From: Promicromonosporaceae bacterium
Lineage (GTDB): Bacteria > Actinomycetota > Actinomycetes > Actinomycetales > Cellulomonadaceae
DNA: 45,109 nt
Assembly (NCBI GenBank): GCA_009783295.1
Contig: WRHK01000031.1
Coordinates: forward strand, 1-45,109
Reading direction: 5' to 3'
Within the stretch, counting starts at the first letter, position 1. The number at the start of each line of letters is the position of its first letter. A model generated the notes under the pieces. It saw only the letters and a list, made by a program, of their open reading frames with translations, made no database searches and was not told the DNA's origin. The translations under genes were made by a program, and so were the position numbers. Shown piece by piece: positions 38,516 through 45,109 of the stretch.

Positions 38516-39991
38516 GTGCGCGCTGCCCGGACCGGGTCGCTGGTCGGCTCGGCGGCGCTGGTGGTGCTCCTCGCCGCGCTCGCGGCCGCTACGGGCCTGA
38601 GCCCGGTCGGCTGGGCCGTCGGGCTCGTCTGCGCCGCGGTGGTGGTCGCCGTGGAGGTGCGCGGTCTGTCCCGTTACGCCCACGCGCGCGGGCCGGCCGA
38701 CATGATCACGCTCACGCGGGCGATCCTGACCTGCGGCGTGGCGGCGCTGGTCGCGGAGTCGTTCCTGCGGACGCCGCCCGTCGGGGCGATCGTGGCCCTC
38801 ACGGTCCCCGCGCTCGCGCTCGACGCGGTGGACGGGTGGGTGGCCCGGCGCACGCGCACGGCGTCGCTGTTCGGCGCGTGGTTCGACGGCGAGGTCGACG
38901 CGTTCCTCATGCTCGTGCTGAGCGTGGGCGTCGTGCGGTCGGCCGGCGCGTGGGTGCTCGCGATCGGCGGCGTCCGTTACGCGTTCGGGCTGGCCGGGCG
39001 CGGCCTGCCCTGGCTGCGGGCGCCGCTCCCGCCGCGTTACTGGCGCAAGGTCGTGACGGCGACGGCGGGGATCGTGCTCGCCGCGGCGGTCGCCGGCGTC
39101 GCGCCGTCCGCCGTCACGGAGGCAGCGCTGGCCGTCGTGCTCGCTCTGCTGGCCGAGTCGTTCGGCCGGGACGTGCTCTGGCTCTGGAGCCGCCGGGCCG
39201 CCACCCGTGCGCTGGCGGCGCCGGGGGACGGGCACGCCGCCCGCGACCGTCTGGAGCGGGCCCTGGTCCGGGCGCGGCCGGTGGCGTACGAGCCGGGCGA
39301 GTTCGTGGGCCAGGAGAGCTTCATGGGCGCCGAGGAGATCCTCGCGCTGGCCGCCCGTGCGGGCATCGGCCGGGGGACCTCGGTGCTGGACCTGTGCTGC
39401 GGGGTGGCCGGCCCGGGGCGCCTCATCACCCGGGCGCTGGGCTGCACCTACCTGGGGGTCGACTCGAGCGCTGCCGCCGTGACCATCGCCCGGGAGCGCG
39501 CCGGGGAGGACGGCTGCCGGTTCGAGGTCGCGGCGGTCCCGCCGGTCCCCGTCGGGGCGTTCGACGTCGTCCTCCTGTTCGAGACCCTGCTCGCCTTCCC
39601 CGACAAGGAGGCGCTGCTGCGGGAGGTGTCCGCGTCGCTGCCGCCGGGCGGGCGCTTCGCGTTCACCGTCGAGGAGGGCGCACCGCTGACGCGGGCGGAG
39701 CGGAGCAGCATGCCGCGCTCGGACACCGTGTGGCCCGTGCCGCTGCCCGAGCTGCTCGGCTGCCTCGAGCGCGTCGGCCTGCGGGTCACCTGGCAGGAGG
39801 AGCGGAGCCACGCGCACCGTGCCGTGGCCCACGCGCTCGCCCGGGCGTTCGCCGACGACGCCCCGCACATCACGGCGCATCTCGGGCGCCGCGCCCTGGA
39901 CGACCTGGTCACGTCGCACCGCCTGTGGGGCGAGTGGCTGCAGGCGGGACGGATCAGGAAGTTCGCCTTCGTCACCGAGAAGACGCCGTAG
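38516..39991 (+). CDS. CDP-alcohol phosphatidyltransferase fused to a methyltransferase
   Basis: The N-terminal half (about 1-230) is a membrane domain with the complete CDP-alcohol phosphotransferase motif DG-x2-AR-x8-G-x3-D-x3-D at about residues 106-128 (starts DGWVARR, ends WFDGEVD). These enzymes swap CMP for an alcohol head group on a lipid. The C-terminal half carries a class I methyltransferase with VLDLCCGVAGPGRLITRA near 290 and VLLFETLLAFPDKEALLREV. GTG 38516 follows GGGAGG; GTG 38495 is an in-frame alternative adding 7 residues. The two activities probably work on one product. Next gene: BchC-like dehydrogenase, 13 bases on. Confidence 0.88.
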   Translation: MRAARTGSLVGSAALVVLLAALAAATGLSPVGWAVGLVCAAVVVAVEVRGLSRYAHARGPADMITLTRAILTCGVAALVAESFLRTPPVGAIVALTVPALALDAVDGWVARRTRTASLFGAWFDGEVDAFLMLVLSVGVVRSAGAWVLAIGGVRYAFGLAGRGLPWLRAPLPPRYWRKVVTATAGIVLAAAVAGVAPSAVTEAALAVVLALLAESFGRDVLWLWSRRAATRALAAPGDGHAARDRLERALVRARPVAYEPGEFVGQESFMGAEEILALAARAGIGRGTSVLDLCCGVAGPGRLITRALGCTYLGVDSSAAAVTIARERAGEDGCRFEVAAVPPVPVGAFDVVLLFETLLAFPDKEALLREVSASLPPGGRFAFTVEEGAPLTRAERSSMPRSDTVWPVPLPELLGCLERVGLRVTWQEERSHAHRAVAHALARAFADDAPHITAHLGRRALDDLVTSHRLWGEWLQAGRIRKFAFVTEKTP

Positions 39992-40004
39992 CCGGGGCCG
40001 CGCG

Positions 40005-41018
40005 ATGGCGAGCGACAGGCGGACCGGCCAGTCTGGGACTGTGGTGGACGAGGCTCTGGCGTACTGGCTGGGCAGTCCCGGTCAGGGCGAGATCAGACCG
40101 GTGTCGCTGCCGGCGCGCGGTGCGGACGACGTGGTCGTCCGCACCGTCCGTTCCGGCGTGAGCCGGGGCACCGAGGCGCTCGTCTTCCGCGGCGACGTGC
40201 CGCCGGACCAGTACGTCGCCATGCGCGCCCCGTTCCAGGAGGGCGAGTTCCCCGGGCCGGTCAAGTACGGCTACCTGAACGTCGGGGTGGTCGAGGACGG
40301 CCCCGCCGCACTGCGCGGCCGGACGGTCTTCTGCCTCTTTCCGCACCAGACGCGGTACGTCGTCCCGGCCGCGTCCGTCGTCGTCGTGCCCGACGGCGTG
40401 CCCGCGTCCCGGGCCGTGCTGGCCGGCACGGTCGAGACCGCCGTCAACGCGCTGTGGGACGCCGCGCCGCTGGTCGGCGACCGCGTGAGCGTCGTCGGGG
40501 CGGGCATGGTGGGGTGCTGCGTGGCCCGCCTGCTGGCCGGGATCCCGGGGGCCGACGTCGAGCTGGTCGACGTCGACGACGCGAAGGTCAAGGTTGCCGA
40601 CGACCTCGGCGTCGGGTTCGCGCTGCCCGCCGAGGCGCGCCGGGAGCGCGACCTGGTGCTGCACACGAGCGCGACCTCCGCGGGGCTGCAGCTCGCGCTC
40701 GACCTGCTGGTGCCCGACGGGACGGTCGTCGACCTGAGCTGGTACGGCGACGCCCCCGTGCACCTCGAGCTCGGGAGCGCGTTCCACTCCCGCCGCCTGA
40801 CGGTCCGGGCCAGCCAGGTGGGGGCGGTCGCGCGGTCGCGCCGGGACACGCGCTCGACGCGCGACCGGCTCGCGCTGGCCCTGGAGCTGCTGCGCGACCC
40901 GGCCTTCGACGCGCTCCTCACCGGGGAGTCGGAGTTCCAGGAGCTGCCCGACGTCATGACCCGCCTCGCCACGGGCCGCCTGCCCGGCCTCTGCCACACG
41001 ATCGCGTACGGGGGGTGA
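40005..41018 (+). CDS. Medium-chain dehydrogenase, BchC-like zinc-binding alcohol dehydrogenase subfamily
   Basis: This is a 337-residue MDR-fold oxidoreductase. The N-terminal domain has [17 protein letters not shown], the signature of the subfamily that includes bacteriochlorophyllide dehydrogenase BchC. The usual catalytic zinc Cys and structural Cys cluster of alcohol dehydrogenases are absent. The cofactor motif [17 protein letters not shown] is near residue 163. The gene sits 13 bases after the phosphatidyltransferase fusion and 2 bases before the pterin-synthase-like gene, so one transcript is likely. The substrate is unknown; a sugar or pterin-derived alcohol is a guess. Confidence 0.87.
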
Positions 41019-41020
41019 GC

Positions 41021-41419
41021 ATGTTCTCGGTGACGGTCCGCGACCACATGATGGTCGCGCACAGCTTCCGCGGCGAGACGTTCGGGCCGGCGCAGCGGCT
41101 GCACGGGGCGACGTTCGTCGTCGACGCGACGTTCAGCCGGGCCGCCCTCGACGCGGACAACGTGGTGGTCGACATCGGGCGGGCGGGGGAGGCCCTCAAG
41201 GCGGTCCTCGCGGAGCTCACCTACCGCAACCTCGACGACGAGCCGGCCCTCGCGGGCGTGAACACCACCACCGAGGCGCTCGCGCAGGTCGTCGCCGACC
41301 GGCTGTCCACCAGGATCGAGACCGGCGACCTCGGCCCGGGTGCCCGGGACCTGACCCGGCTCGTCGTCACCCTCCACGAGTCCCACGTCGCGTGGGCGAG
41401 CTACGAGCGCGCGCTGTGA
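41021..41419 (+). CDS. 6-pyruvoyltetrahydropterin synthase / QueD-like protein with altered active site
   Basis: This is a 132-residue tunnelling-fold protein of the PTPS/QueD family. It retains AHSFRGETF (H14) and RLHGATF (H28), plus the C-terminal Glu in LHESHVAW. In canonical enzymes the second region is C-x-x-x-HGH, giving the catalytic Cys and the third zinc His. Here those positions are Ala24 and Ala30, and the Asp-His pair near LDHHYLND is replaced (LTYRNLDD). The zinc site and chemistry are therefore probably different. ATG 41021 follows the dehydrogenase by 2 bases, and the stop overlaps the glycosyltransferase start (GTGA). Confidence 0.88.
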
Positions 41420-41890
41420 CTACGGTCCACGTCGTCGTCCCGGACGCGTTCGACGACCCCCAGCGACCCAGCGGCGGCAACGTCTACGACCGTCGGCTGT
41501 GCGAGGAGCTGGGCCGCCTCGGCTGGTCGGTGCGGGTGCTCCCCGTGCCCGGGCCGGTCGCGCTCGCGGCCGCGCTCGACGACGTCGCGGACGGCGGGCT
41601 CGTGATCGTCGACGGCCTGGTCGGCTCCGGAGCGCCCGACGCCGTGCTCCTGCACGCCGACCGGCTGCGCCTCGCCATGCTCGTGCACCTGCCGCTGGGG
41701 GTCGACGGCGACGACGGCGTCCGCGCCCGCGAGCGGGCGGCCCTCCACGGGTGCGCCGCCGTCATCGCGACGAGCCGGTGGACGCGGCGCTGGCTGGAGC
41801 GCCGCTACGACCTGACGGCGGGCAGGGTCGCGGTCGCCGAGCCGGGCGTGGACCGGGCACCCCTGGCCCCGGGCACGCCGCCGGGGGGCC
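41416..41890 (+). CDS. Glycosyltransferase family 4-like, N-terminal fragment cut at a sequence junction
   Basis: About 155 residues of a GT-B glycosyltransferase are present. [20 protein letters not shown] shows the N-terminal Rossmann domain with its GGN loop, then [15 protein letters not shown] and [26 protein letters not shown] and [18 protein letters not shown] are the typical linker before the sugar-nucleotide domain. The GRLLCV-type strand expected next is missing: the actinobacterial sequence stops and unrelated DNA begins. The frame stays open by chance to 42687. GTG 41416 overlaps the previous stop. Confidence 0.9.
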
Positions 41891-41896
41891 GCCTTC
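41878..41896. other. Junction between actinobacterial and foreign DNA
   Basis: Upstream, frame 1 encodes the glycosyltransferase as far as PGTPPGG. Downstream, frame 2 encodes a repeat protein already in mid-domain at [17 protein letters not shown]. Both are truncated here, at a G/C-only stretch (GGGGGGCCGCC) that could supply microhomology for a misjoin. Confidence 0.85.
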
Positions 41897-42802
41897 CTGC
41901 GGGCCTGCCAGCATGCGGCCCCCCCGTACGACGGAGCCGTGTTCGAGGAAGGCGGCGGGGTTGTGTCCACCTATTCCACGTCGCTGGCCATCTCGGCCTG
42001 GTCCGGGCTGGACGCCGCGGAGCACGCCCCGGCCATGGCCCGGGCCGCCGGCTGGCTGCGCCGGCAGCAGGCTTCCGAGGAGCATGGCGGCTACGACCCC
42101 GCCTTGCACCCCGGGGCGTATGGCGGCTTCGCGTATGGCGCCGGCGGGGGCGCCCGGGGGTCCCGTCCCGACCTGTCCAACACCTGGATGGCCCTCCAGG
42201 CCCTCCGGGACAGCGGCCTCGCGGGCCCGGACGATCCGGTCTGGGCCAGGGCCCTGGTGTTCGCCCAGCGCTGCCAGCACACCACAGAAACCAACGACCA
42301 GCCCTGGGCCACGGACAACCCGGATCCCCTGGGCGGGGGGGTGTACCTGCCCGACGCCGGAGCCGACGGCGCGCCGGCCCCTTACGGGACCATGACCTGC
42401 GCCCTCATCCTGGCCTATCTGTCGGCCGGGGTGGAGCCGGGGGACGAAAGGCTGGCCCTGGCCGTCGGCTGGCTGGCCCGCAACTTCGACGTGGAGGGCG
42501 TCCCGCGCCAGGGGCAGGACGGCCTGTACTATTATTATCGGATTTTGGCCAAGGCCCTTTCCGCCCTGGGAGAGCCGGACCTCGGCGGCCATGCCTGGGC
42601 GCCGTCGCTGGCCCGCGCGGTGGCCGCGCGCCAGCGCCCCGACGGCTCCTTCGCCAACGCCGCCGCCGGCCGGTGGCAGGAAGGTGATCCGGCCCTGGCC
42701 ACGGGCTATGCCCTGGCGGCCCTGGGGCTGGCGCGTCAGGCCATGGCGTCCGGCGCGGCCACGGCGGAAAATATCCCGAAACCCGCCGGCCCCCAAAGGT
42801 AA
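41882..42802 (+). CDS. Squalene/terpene-cyclase-type prenyltransferase-repeat protein, C-terminal part
   Basis: The frame enters from the junction without a start and gives about 306 residues. It has alpha-alpha toroid repeats: [68 protein letters not shown] and DGLYYYYRILAKALSALG. These are typical of the squalene-hopene-cyclase/prenyltransferase repeat superfamily in PVC-type genomes. No DxDD acid motif is visible in this part, so it may be non-enzymatic. It shares no context with the genes upstream. Confidence 0.8.
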   Translation, partial: RGAAFLRACQHAAPPYDGAVFEEGGGVVSTYSTSLAISAWSGLDAAEHAPAMARAAGWLRRQQASEEHGGYDPALHPGAYGGFAYGAGGGARGSRPDLSNTWMALQALRDSGLAGPDDPVWARALVFAQRCQHTTETNDQPWATDNPDPLGGGVYLPDAGADGAPAPYGTMTCALILAYLSAGVEPGDERLALAVGWLARNFDVEGVPRQGQDGLYYYYRILAKALSALGEPDLGGHAWAPSLARAVAARQRPDGSFANAAAGRWQEGDPALATGYALAALGLARQAMASGAATAENIPKPAGPQR

Positions 42803-43178
42803 AGTACGGCAAAGGCGCGCGGTGCGCCGATGATGCGGGAGGACACGCTTTCGGGCGGTTGGCCGGCGCGCGTGCGCCGAGATCCCTGCCGCGGGCGGGG
42901 GGCCGTTTTTTCGCTTGACCCGCCGGCCGGGTAAAAGGTAAAAAGGAAATGCGCGGGGACGCGCGCGGGCGGGCCAGGGCGGGCAGGGCCTGGACGGCCC
43001 GCACAAAAAAAAGGTTTTTTTTTGTTGACCGGCTTTCGTGGCCGCATATATTGGCGGGGTCATCGCGGGGAAGGCCTCCGGGTGGCGCGCCGGGCAATTG
43101 GGGCTTGGCGGGTTGTCCTTGGCCGATGGGCGAATATATAGCTTTTTTCCGGGTTTCTTTTTTCGAGGGAGGCTGGTC
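42803..43178 (+). promoter_or_regulatory. Intergenic region with tandem promoters before the barrel protein
   Basis: Three sigma70-like pairs can be drawn: TTGACC 42915-42920 with TAAAAA 42939-42944 (18 bases), TTGACC 43025-43030 with TATATT 43047-43052 (16), and TTGTCC 43113-43118 with TATATA 43135-43140 (16). An A-run followed by a T-run lies just before the second one, like an UP element. A 77-codon frame (42949-43182) overlaps the next start by ATGA but looks weak. No firm gene is seen. Confidence 0.6.
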
Positions 43179-44291
43179 ATGAAAAAGCGCATTGTTGGTG
43201 CATTGCTGGGCGTGGTGCTGCTGGCCCAGGGGGCGTTCGCCCAGGGGTTGTGTTCGGCGGGTGACGGCGAAATAGCCGCCATCCTGGACGCTTATGGCGT
43301 CACGGGCATCACCACGGCCGCCGACGCGTGGGATTGGATTGACACCAACAAGGAATGGGCCCAATTGATCAGCCGCGACTTGTCGGCTGGCGCGGCGGCC
43401 AATACCCAGACGCTCATGGGCGCCAACACCGCTATCCTGGGCGGCGTCGCCAAGGGCCTGACGGGCAGCACGATGAGCTTGGGCGGCGGATACGCCCGGA
43501 ACGATCGGGCCTTCCGGTCGGCCGACAGCATGGCCGCCGTGGCCTCGTCCGGGTATGACTGCGGATGGGAATTGTGGGTGCAGCCCTTCGCCAACTGGAC
43601 CCGCATGAGCGCGGGCACTTGGTATGCCGGTCACAAAACGGACACCTACGGTTTCAACATCGCCGCGCAAAAGGCGTTTGACTTCGGCAAGGCGGGCCTG
43701 TTCGCCGGCTATTCGCACACGGCGTTCGAAACCCGCGGCATCAGCGGCATGGGATCCGGATATATCTTCCGCAATTGGGGCATGCACTCCAACAACTGGA
43801 CCTTGGGCGCGTTTGGCGACTTCAACGTCAAGAACTTCGCCGTCACCGCCATCCTGGGCCACACCTGGAACCGCCTGCATGACGGTTCCTGGCGCAACCA
43901 CGCCAACACCTGGTTCCACTCCCTCAAGGTGGGGTATGACTTCTGCCTGTCCAATGGCCTGACGCTGACCCCGTCCATCGGCTGGCGCTACACCCACATG
44001 AAGCCCCGCGGAGCCGGAGCCCTGTACAGCAGCCAGCTGCCCTTCCTGGCCAAGCTCGCCTATGACAGCGGCAACGGCAAGTTCTACGTCGAAGGCGGCT
44101 ACATCCGCGAAGTGTCCCACCGCACCGTGTACAAGTATGGCCGCCCCCTGTCCAACGACCTGGGCACCATCGGCGCGGGCTACGAAGGCAACATCGGCCG
44201 GTTCGACTGGGGGATTGACTACGACTACCAGTTCGACACCCGCGGCACCAACAGCCACACCTTGGCCCTCAAGTTCGGCATCAAGTTCTAG
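43179..44291 (+). CDS. Outer-membrane beta-barrel protein (autotransporter-barrel-like)
   Basis: The product has 370 residues. The signal peptide MKKRIVGALLGVVLLAQGAFA is followed by a short helical region (LCSAGDGEIAAIL onward). From about residue 100 to the end, alternating hydrophobic strands with aromatic girdles (GWELWVQPFANWTRM, GLFAGYSHTAF, NWTLGAFGDF, KVGYDF) indicate a barrel, and the last residue is Phe, as required for outer-membrane insertion. There is no long passenger domain. ATG 43179 has GAGGGAGG upstream. This is Gram-negative biology and cannot belong with the actinobacterial genes. Confidence 0.85.
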   Translation: MKKRIVGALLGVVLLAQGAFAQGLCSAGDGEIAAILDAYGVTGITTAADAWDWIDTNKEWAQLISRDLSAGAAANTQTLMGANTAILGGVAKGLTGSTMSLGGGYARNDRAFRSADSMAAVASSGYDCGWELWVQPFANWTRMSAGTWYAGHKTDTYGFNIAAQKAFDFGKAGLFAGYSHTAFETRGISGMGSGYIFRNWGMHSNNWTLGAFGDFNVKNFAVTAILGHTWNRLHDGSWRNHANTWFHSLKVGYDFCLSNGLTLTPSIGWRYTHMKPRGAGALYSSQLPFLAKLAYDSGNGKFYVEGGYIREVSHRTVYKYGRPLSNDLGTIGAGYEGNIGRFDWGIDYDYQFDTRGTNSHTLALKFGIKF

Positions 44292-44327
44292 CCGACGCCT
44301 TGGGCAGAGTGGTTCATGGACAACAAG

Positions 44328-44356
44328 CCCCGTCCGCCATGCGGACGGGGTTTTTT
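44328..44356 (+). terminator. Intrinsic terminator after the barrel gene
   Basis: A 10-bp stem CCCCGTCCGC/GCGGACGGGG (44328-44337 with 44341-44350) has a 3-base loop and is followed by six T residues, 36 bases after the stop. Confidence 0.95.
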
Positions 44357-44361
44357 ATTTT

Positions 44362-44528
44362 CGTAGGGGCGGCAACCTGCCGCCCGAAACCGCAGTGCAG
44401 AGTGCAGAACGCAGAGTGCAGAGTAAAAAGAAAGAATCGGCAGTAGGCTCTGCACTCTTCACTCTGCACTCTTCACTCTGCACTCATCACTCTGCACTCT
44501 GCACTAGCGGTTCCGTGCCGCCCCTACG
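44362..44528. repeat. MITE-like element with terminal inverted repeats
   Basis: The ends are CGTAGGGGCGGCA (44362-44374) and its exact complement (44516-44528), extended inward by AACCGC/GCGGTT. The interior is a run of GCAGAGT units on one side and ACTCTGC units on the other, a few bases apart, so the whole can fold into a long hairpin. No transposase is encoded. Its right end supplies the stop codon of the neighbouring deacetylase gene. Confidence 0.75.
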
Positions 44529-45109
44529 GCTCAGGCGGGTCCAGCCCCATCAACGCCTCGTATTCCAGGCGGCGGTTGGGGGAATCCAGCAAAAAGGCGT
44601 CCGCGGTGGCGCGGTCCACGCCTTCGGCCTCGGGCCCGCCTTGGCACGGATGAAAGCACAATTCCACCGCGCCAAACCGCCCGGGGACTTTCAGGCGCCG
44701 CAAGGCGCGCCCGTGCAGGCGGGTGGCATGCAGGATGCTGTAAAAATACGTTTCCGCCCCGGCCTCGCCGGCGGCGGCGGCCGGCCCCGCGAGCCAGCCG
44801 CAGGCCCGCAGCGCCGCCCATTTGACAACCCCGCCGTCCAGCCAGGCCCGGCCAAGTCCGGCCCCGGCCCAGGTGGCCCGCAGGCTTTCGTTGACGCGGC
44901 GCAGGCGCGGGATGCCGTACTCGGCCCGCAGCCCGCCGGCGACCCGGAACAGGACGGGGATCATGTGGGCGTGGCGGTGGGAATCCAGATGCGCCAGCGC
45001 CAGGCCGCGGTCCAGCGCCCACCGGATTTGCGCGCGCATTTCGGCTTCCGCCTGGCGCGCCAGTTCCCGCGGCCGCAGCACGGACAGGGCCAGCAGGGCC
45101 GCCCAGCCC
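44524..45109 (-). CDS. ChbG/HpnK-family carbohydrate deacetylase, C-terminal part (start outside window)
   Basis: The frame runs off the end of the window. The metal/substrate motif LAHLDSHRHAHM, with the H-x-D-S-H-x-H pattern, marks the YdjC/ChbG/HpnK deacetylase fold, which removes acetyl groups from chito-oligosaccharides or hopanoid glycosides. YGIPRLRRVNE and VELCFHPC follow as in homologues. The stop TAG lies inside the inverted repeat of the adjacent mobile element. Having a squalene-cyclase-type protein nearby is suggestive of hopanoid modification, but the link is weak. Confidence 0.85.
   Translation of the reverse strand, partial: GWAALLALSVLRPRELARQAEAEMRAQIRWALDRGLALAHLDSHRHAHMIPVLFRVAGGLRAEYGIPRLRRVNESLRATWAGAGLGRAWLDGGVVKWAALRACGWLAGPAAAAGEAGAETYFYSILHATRLHGRALRRLKVPGRFGAVELCFHPCQGGPEAEGVDRATADAFLLDSPNRRLEYEALMGLDPPEP

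Follow-up and report, generated by a model that had tools for sequence, protein, structure and literature searches.

Contigs that combine DNA of more than one organism have been described before. In the GUNC report, inter-species chimeric contigs are fragments of different sources misassembled into one contig, and misassemblies are termed relatively rare (PMC8201837); a second report has chimeric contigs arising from species of low to intermediate coverage (PMC7881036). Here we describe a chimeric joint in the window, that is, the whole stretch of 45,109 nucleotides that we analysed, which is the complete contig C31 of an actinobacterial assembly (G000; 3,975,351 bases in 119 contigs, with estimates of 99.98 for completeness and 2.11 for contamination). 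Like the chimeras of the GUNC report (PMC8201837), C31 brings mixed sources together in one contig, and the contamination estimate is low despite the foreign DNA; unlike them, the foreign pieces here are found at the tips of contigs, and on several contigs of the same assembly. If coverage dropped at the G/C-rich joint of C31, this would fit the coverage range given in the second report (PMC7881036). We consider C31 to be an artefactual fusion of the DNA of two organisms, made by the assembler or in the library, and put the probability of this at about 0.96.

C31 changes origin within a glycosyltransferase gene

The initial annotation claimed a chimeric junction at 41870..41900, and the sequence of C31 does contain a break and join there. 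The frame of a family 4 glycosyltransferase (GT) tracks the full-length gene of a relative (G028) through '...APGTPxGG' and departs from it thereafter, another frame, which encodes a repeat protein and is open from about 41885, begins in mid-protein, and the composition shifts. Both the cut GT frame and the mid-protein start in another frame had been noted, as had a G/C-rich stretch at the joint, which proved to be an 18-base run of G and C only (41876-41893). In a repeat search that covered 41700-42100, we also found a 10-bp perfect stem at the joint with its outer ends at 41883 and 41924.

From the joint, foreign DNA runs for 3.2 kb through to the end of C31. The comparison of composition across the joint, which the initial annotation had proposed as a check, returned this tail as a strong outlier: the tetranucleotide distance of 41895-45109 to native DNA was 0.514 (z 11.6), the reference being native DNA of C31 and of a second contig, C55 (79 overlapping windows, mean 0.171, standard deviation 0.029, maximum 0.266). 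The G+C content at third codon positions (GC3) was 0.87-0.89 in three foreign genes versus 0.93-0.99 in nine native genes, and nine 400-bp windows of C31 fell below the native 0.5% quantile, every one of them starting at 42801 or beyond. The two parts of C31 thus differ in genomic origin by composition, codon usage and gene content. As for the consistent actinobacterial genes claimed for the 42 kb or so upstream of the joint, those that could be named are the operon from about 38.5 kb on and the end of UvrC within the first kilobase of C31, and the remainder is native by composition. The GT has a match in 5 of 38 other relatives and was not found in the 10 other genomes of the genus that were searched, in which the junction site is not comparable because the GT itself is absent.

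The rest of the gene lies at the end of C55

G000 contains 15 matches to the C-terminal half of the G028 GT, the best of which was C55:26766-27209(-) (E 6.5e-38, 53% identity), followed by one with an E value of 2.1e-12. C55 is 27,214 bases long, and the match stops at most 5 bases from the contig end. Aligned to the G028 gene, the GT pieces of C31 and C55 are complementary and do not overlap, and 30 alignment columns (90 bases in G028) are missing between them. In G028 the gene order is a dehydrogenase, a 6-pyruvoyl-tetrahydropterin-synthase-like (PTPS-like) gene and the GT, then RibD and GCH2, with a frame between GT and RibD that we take to encode a flippase-like membrane protein. C31 holds the dehydrogenase, the PTPS-like gene and part of the GT, and C55 holds the rest of the GT, RibD and GCH2 but lacks the flippase-like frame. 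The full order is present in one of five relatives and its first part in three more: one has dehydrogenase-PTPS-GT, and RibD close by on the opposite strand (L022), two have dehydrogenase-PTPS-GT only (L023 and L024), and the last has GT matches only (L025). The codon usage of C55 is native (GAT absent from 5 genes, GC3 0.93-0.98), and its tip is native in composition and without foreign DNA. Because the GT remainder stands at the end of C55 and the operon order is that of G028, C55 is most probably the native neighbour of C31.

The operon of dehydrogenase, PTPS-like, GT, RibD-type reductase and GTP-cyclohydrolase-II-like genes, spread over window 39969-41893 and the end of C55, thus has its order in common with G028. 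A literature search on such a dehydrogenase-PTPS-GT-RibD-GCH2 operon found nothing specific.

Genes and elements of the foreign tail

Downstream of the joint, much of what the initial annotation had listed was recovered: the outer-membrane barrel as an autotransporter domain, the terminator as a terminator-like hairpin, and the element resembling a miniature inverted-repeat transposable element (MITE) as an imperfect palindrome. Promoters of the TTGACC/TATATT type had been reported in the plural, and one match was found. Coordinates are given in Table 1.

Table 1 Features around the joint of C31, in window coordinates
Feature	Position	Strand	Basis
Zinc-type dehydrogenase-like gene, native operon	39969..41018	+	67% identity to G028 gene, same order; ADH_zinc_N E 9.7e-5, below cut-off; true start may be downstream
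PTPS-like gene (name presumed), native operon	41021..41419	+	76% identity to G028 gene, same order; 0 Pfam families matched
Family 4 glycosyltransferase, N-terminal part, cut at joint	41416..41893	+	PF13439 E 9.2e-10; 61% to G028
Chimeric joint	41880..41895	.	Alignment to full-length relative and reading of joint; best placement
Squalene-cyclase/prenyltransferase-repeat-like protein without N-terminus, foreign	41885..42802	+	Open frame; weak family matches
Sigma-70-like promoter match TTGACC-16-TATATT, foreign	43025..43052	+	1 found versus 0.3 expected in shuffles
Outer-membrane autotransporter beta-barrel protein, foreign	43182..44291	+	PF03797 E 2.2e-13
Intrinsic-terminator-like hairpin, foreign	44325..44353	+	Hairpin in the sequence
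Imperfect palindromic (MITE-like) element, foreign	about 44362..44523	.	44362-44385 exact copy near end of C25
YdjC-family fragment cut by contig end, foreign	44524..45108	-	PF04794 E 1.1e-17

The matches of the repeat protein to SQHop_cyclase_C (E 0.011) and TIGR01787 (E 0.0018) lie below the curated cut-offs, and the protein has no match to any solved structure. The autotransporter and YdjC families each have one match in all of G000, in both cases in the C31 tail; Omp85 was not found in G000, the same family being matched in 7 of 14 control genomes. The ends of the palindromic element are of the GTAGGGGCGGCA type, and repeats resembling TGCAGAGTGCAGAGT lie inside it.

The initial annotation had described the donor as Gram-negative and akin to the Planctomycetes-Verrucomicrobia-Chlamydiae (PVC) group. 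The autotransporter barrel indicates that the donor was probably Gram-negative; the PVC-like assignment was not confirmed, there being no close relative in the sets searched, which were not aimed at PVC genomes. Viral contigs contained no relative of any of the three foreign proteins, and plasmids none of the repeat protein, the sole foreign protein tried there. A scan of genome contigs with YdjC only returned one relative (44%), in a metagenome-assembled genome labelled Rickettsiales; the repeat protein was not found in that genome, nor, in a search without a positive control, in 398 genomes of its phylum. The donor organism was thus not found among the viral contigs, plasmids and genomes searched.

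Other contigs of the assembly end in foreign-looking DNA

A second contig, C25, has a 24-base exact palindromic repeat in common with the C31 tail, situated ten bases from the C25 end. At the right end of C25 (L031:8100-9746), 11 consecutive C precede the last 1.6 kb, which contain a URO-D-family gene (PF01208), and the sequence upstream reads as a native ABC-transporter operon, as named from its reading frames.

To score contig tips, we used the likelihood of the last 400 bp under a native model and flagged a tip when this fell below the native 0.5% quantile, a quantile taken from the model's own training sequence. The sample was non-random and comprised 166 ends from 87 contigs out of 119 (C24-C48, C52, C55 and C60-C119, some of them represented by a single end; C1-C23, C49-C51, C53, C54 and C56-C59 were left out); the six ends of C117-C119 were masked, and 160 ends of 84 contigs were scored. 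Foreign-like tips numbered 16 among these 160 ends, versus none among 140 control windows placed 3.5-3.9 kb inside. Two were set aside as ribosomal, namely the left tip of C74, which overlaps the start of a 16S rRNA, and the right tip of C90, which has no Rfam match of its own and is presumably ribosomal from a spurious frame in common with C74 left. The right ends of C31 and C25 were unflagged, their last 400 bp being G/C-rich, and the tip test therefore misses some; with these two added, the suspect ends total 16.

The flagged tips vary in content. C88 left encodes HU, a cysteine desulfurase and the selenium protein YedF; C105 left, the C-terminus of a UvrD/PcrA protein and a protein with an AIRS domain; C37 right, glucosamine-6-phosphate deaminase; C62 right, glucuronate isomerase; and C80 right, a TetR regulator in DNA of 37% G+C. 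The C80 stretch (L052) contains 100 N, which may represent a scaffold gap. C60 right matches penicillin-binding protein 2 and may come from another actinobacterium. C97 right has a sub-threshold family match only, five tips were flagged on composition alone (C61 left, C116 right, C98 right, C70 left, which has no Pfam match, and C47 left), and C72 left and C114 right were flagged as well. By gene content, the tips do not look like the DNA of a single organism. With two contig ends (C31 and C25) foreign from their sequence and about 14 others suspect from their composition, genes close to contig ends in G000 should not be taken to indicate transfer.

An artefactual join accounts best for the joint

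The native chromosome would run from C31 into C55 in reversed orientation, a gap of some 90 bp separating the two within a G/C-rich part of the GT gene, and at this gap C31 would have been wrongly extended into 3.2 kb of another bacterium; G000 is presumably a metagenome bin, in which G/C-rich gaps and G/C homopolymers or palindromes may seed such joins. We read the joint as a misassembly because the missing half of the GT stands at the end of C55 and other contigs of G000 have foreign-looking ends, and the operon order in the relative likewise supports the preference of the initial annotation for an artefact over transfer. The fusion was most likely made by the assembler in metagenome assembly; a chimeric library molecule is less likely. 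On this evidence C31 is not the contig of an actinobacterium with a Gram-negative outer-membrane autotransporter, as a naive reading would have it.

A real horizontal transfer, in which Gram-negative DNA was inserted in the GT gene, C31 ended inside the insert and C55 resumed beyond it, would also give an interrupted GT with its other half elsewhere. Yet such an insert would have to be squared with the native tip of C55, with the lack of a second boundary back to native DNA in C31, with an inserted frame that begins in mid-protein, with a barrel protein absent from the 10 other genus genomes, and with other contigs that end in DNA of differing composition and gene content. The initial annotation had seen no integrase, att site or insertion sequence at the joint; consistent with this, 40000-45109 contained neither a tRNA nor any Rfam family, and none of six scanned proteins matched an integrase or transposase family, the search for repeats at the joint having the span given above. 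We therefore regard transfer as highly improbable. An unlikely variant of the artefactual fusion is that a chimera formed physically before sequencing, in library preparation, amplification or ligation, and that the assembler followed it; the 10-bp stem could have allowed fold-back priming or template switching, but foreign tips at many contig ends fit a problem of the assembly graph at least equally well, and a physical chimera is not separable from a computational join on assembled sequence.

Several observations weigh against the artefactual fusion as we have drawn it. The adjacency of C31 and C55 is supported by homology rather than overlap, the last 60 bases of C55 having at most 12 bases in a row in common with the window from position 41701 onwards. 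PurL is broken where C37 ends, and its expected second half was not found at another contig end; a complete PurL on C42 (C42:3280-5478) is 85% identical over 486 bp to the fragment (C37:36802-37227), a pair that suggests a mixed bin with a possible second actinobacterium and says nothing direct about the joint of the window. Finally, a role of G/C-rich sequence in the joins is weaker than the joints read by hand would suggest: at automatic change points, which are rough and badly misplaced for C31 and C25, a G/C-only run longer than the native 95% point (17 bases) occurred at only 4 of 17 ends.

G/C-rich sequence at the joints

One possibility, which we hold tentatively and rate at somewhat under even odds, is that contig tips of high-G+C genomes that end at coverage gaps in G/C homopolymers or palindromes are systematically fused to DNA of unrelated members of the community, as a recurrent error that passes marker-gene checks. 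If so, reference genomes would carry false 'transferred' genes at contig ends while still passing such checks, as the low contamination estimate of G000 illustrates. Joins at G/C-rich coverage gaps are at this stage a lead rather than a result, and a literature search on G/C-rich or poly-G contig-end chimeras found no matching paper, which is not proof of absence. We read seven joints by eye (right ends of C31, C25, C97, C80 and C37, left ends of C88 and C105), in stretches picked by hand and partly for their G/C runs; six of them have a G or C homopolymer of 5 bases or more, five have one of 6 or more, and C37 has none. The native background of G/C homopolymers of at least 6 was 15 in 69,014 bases.
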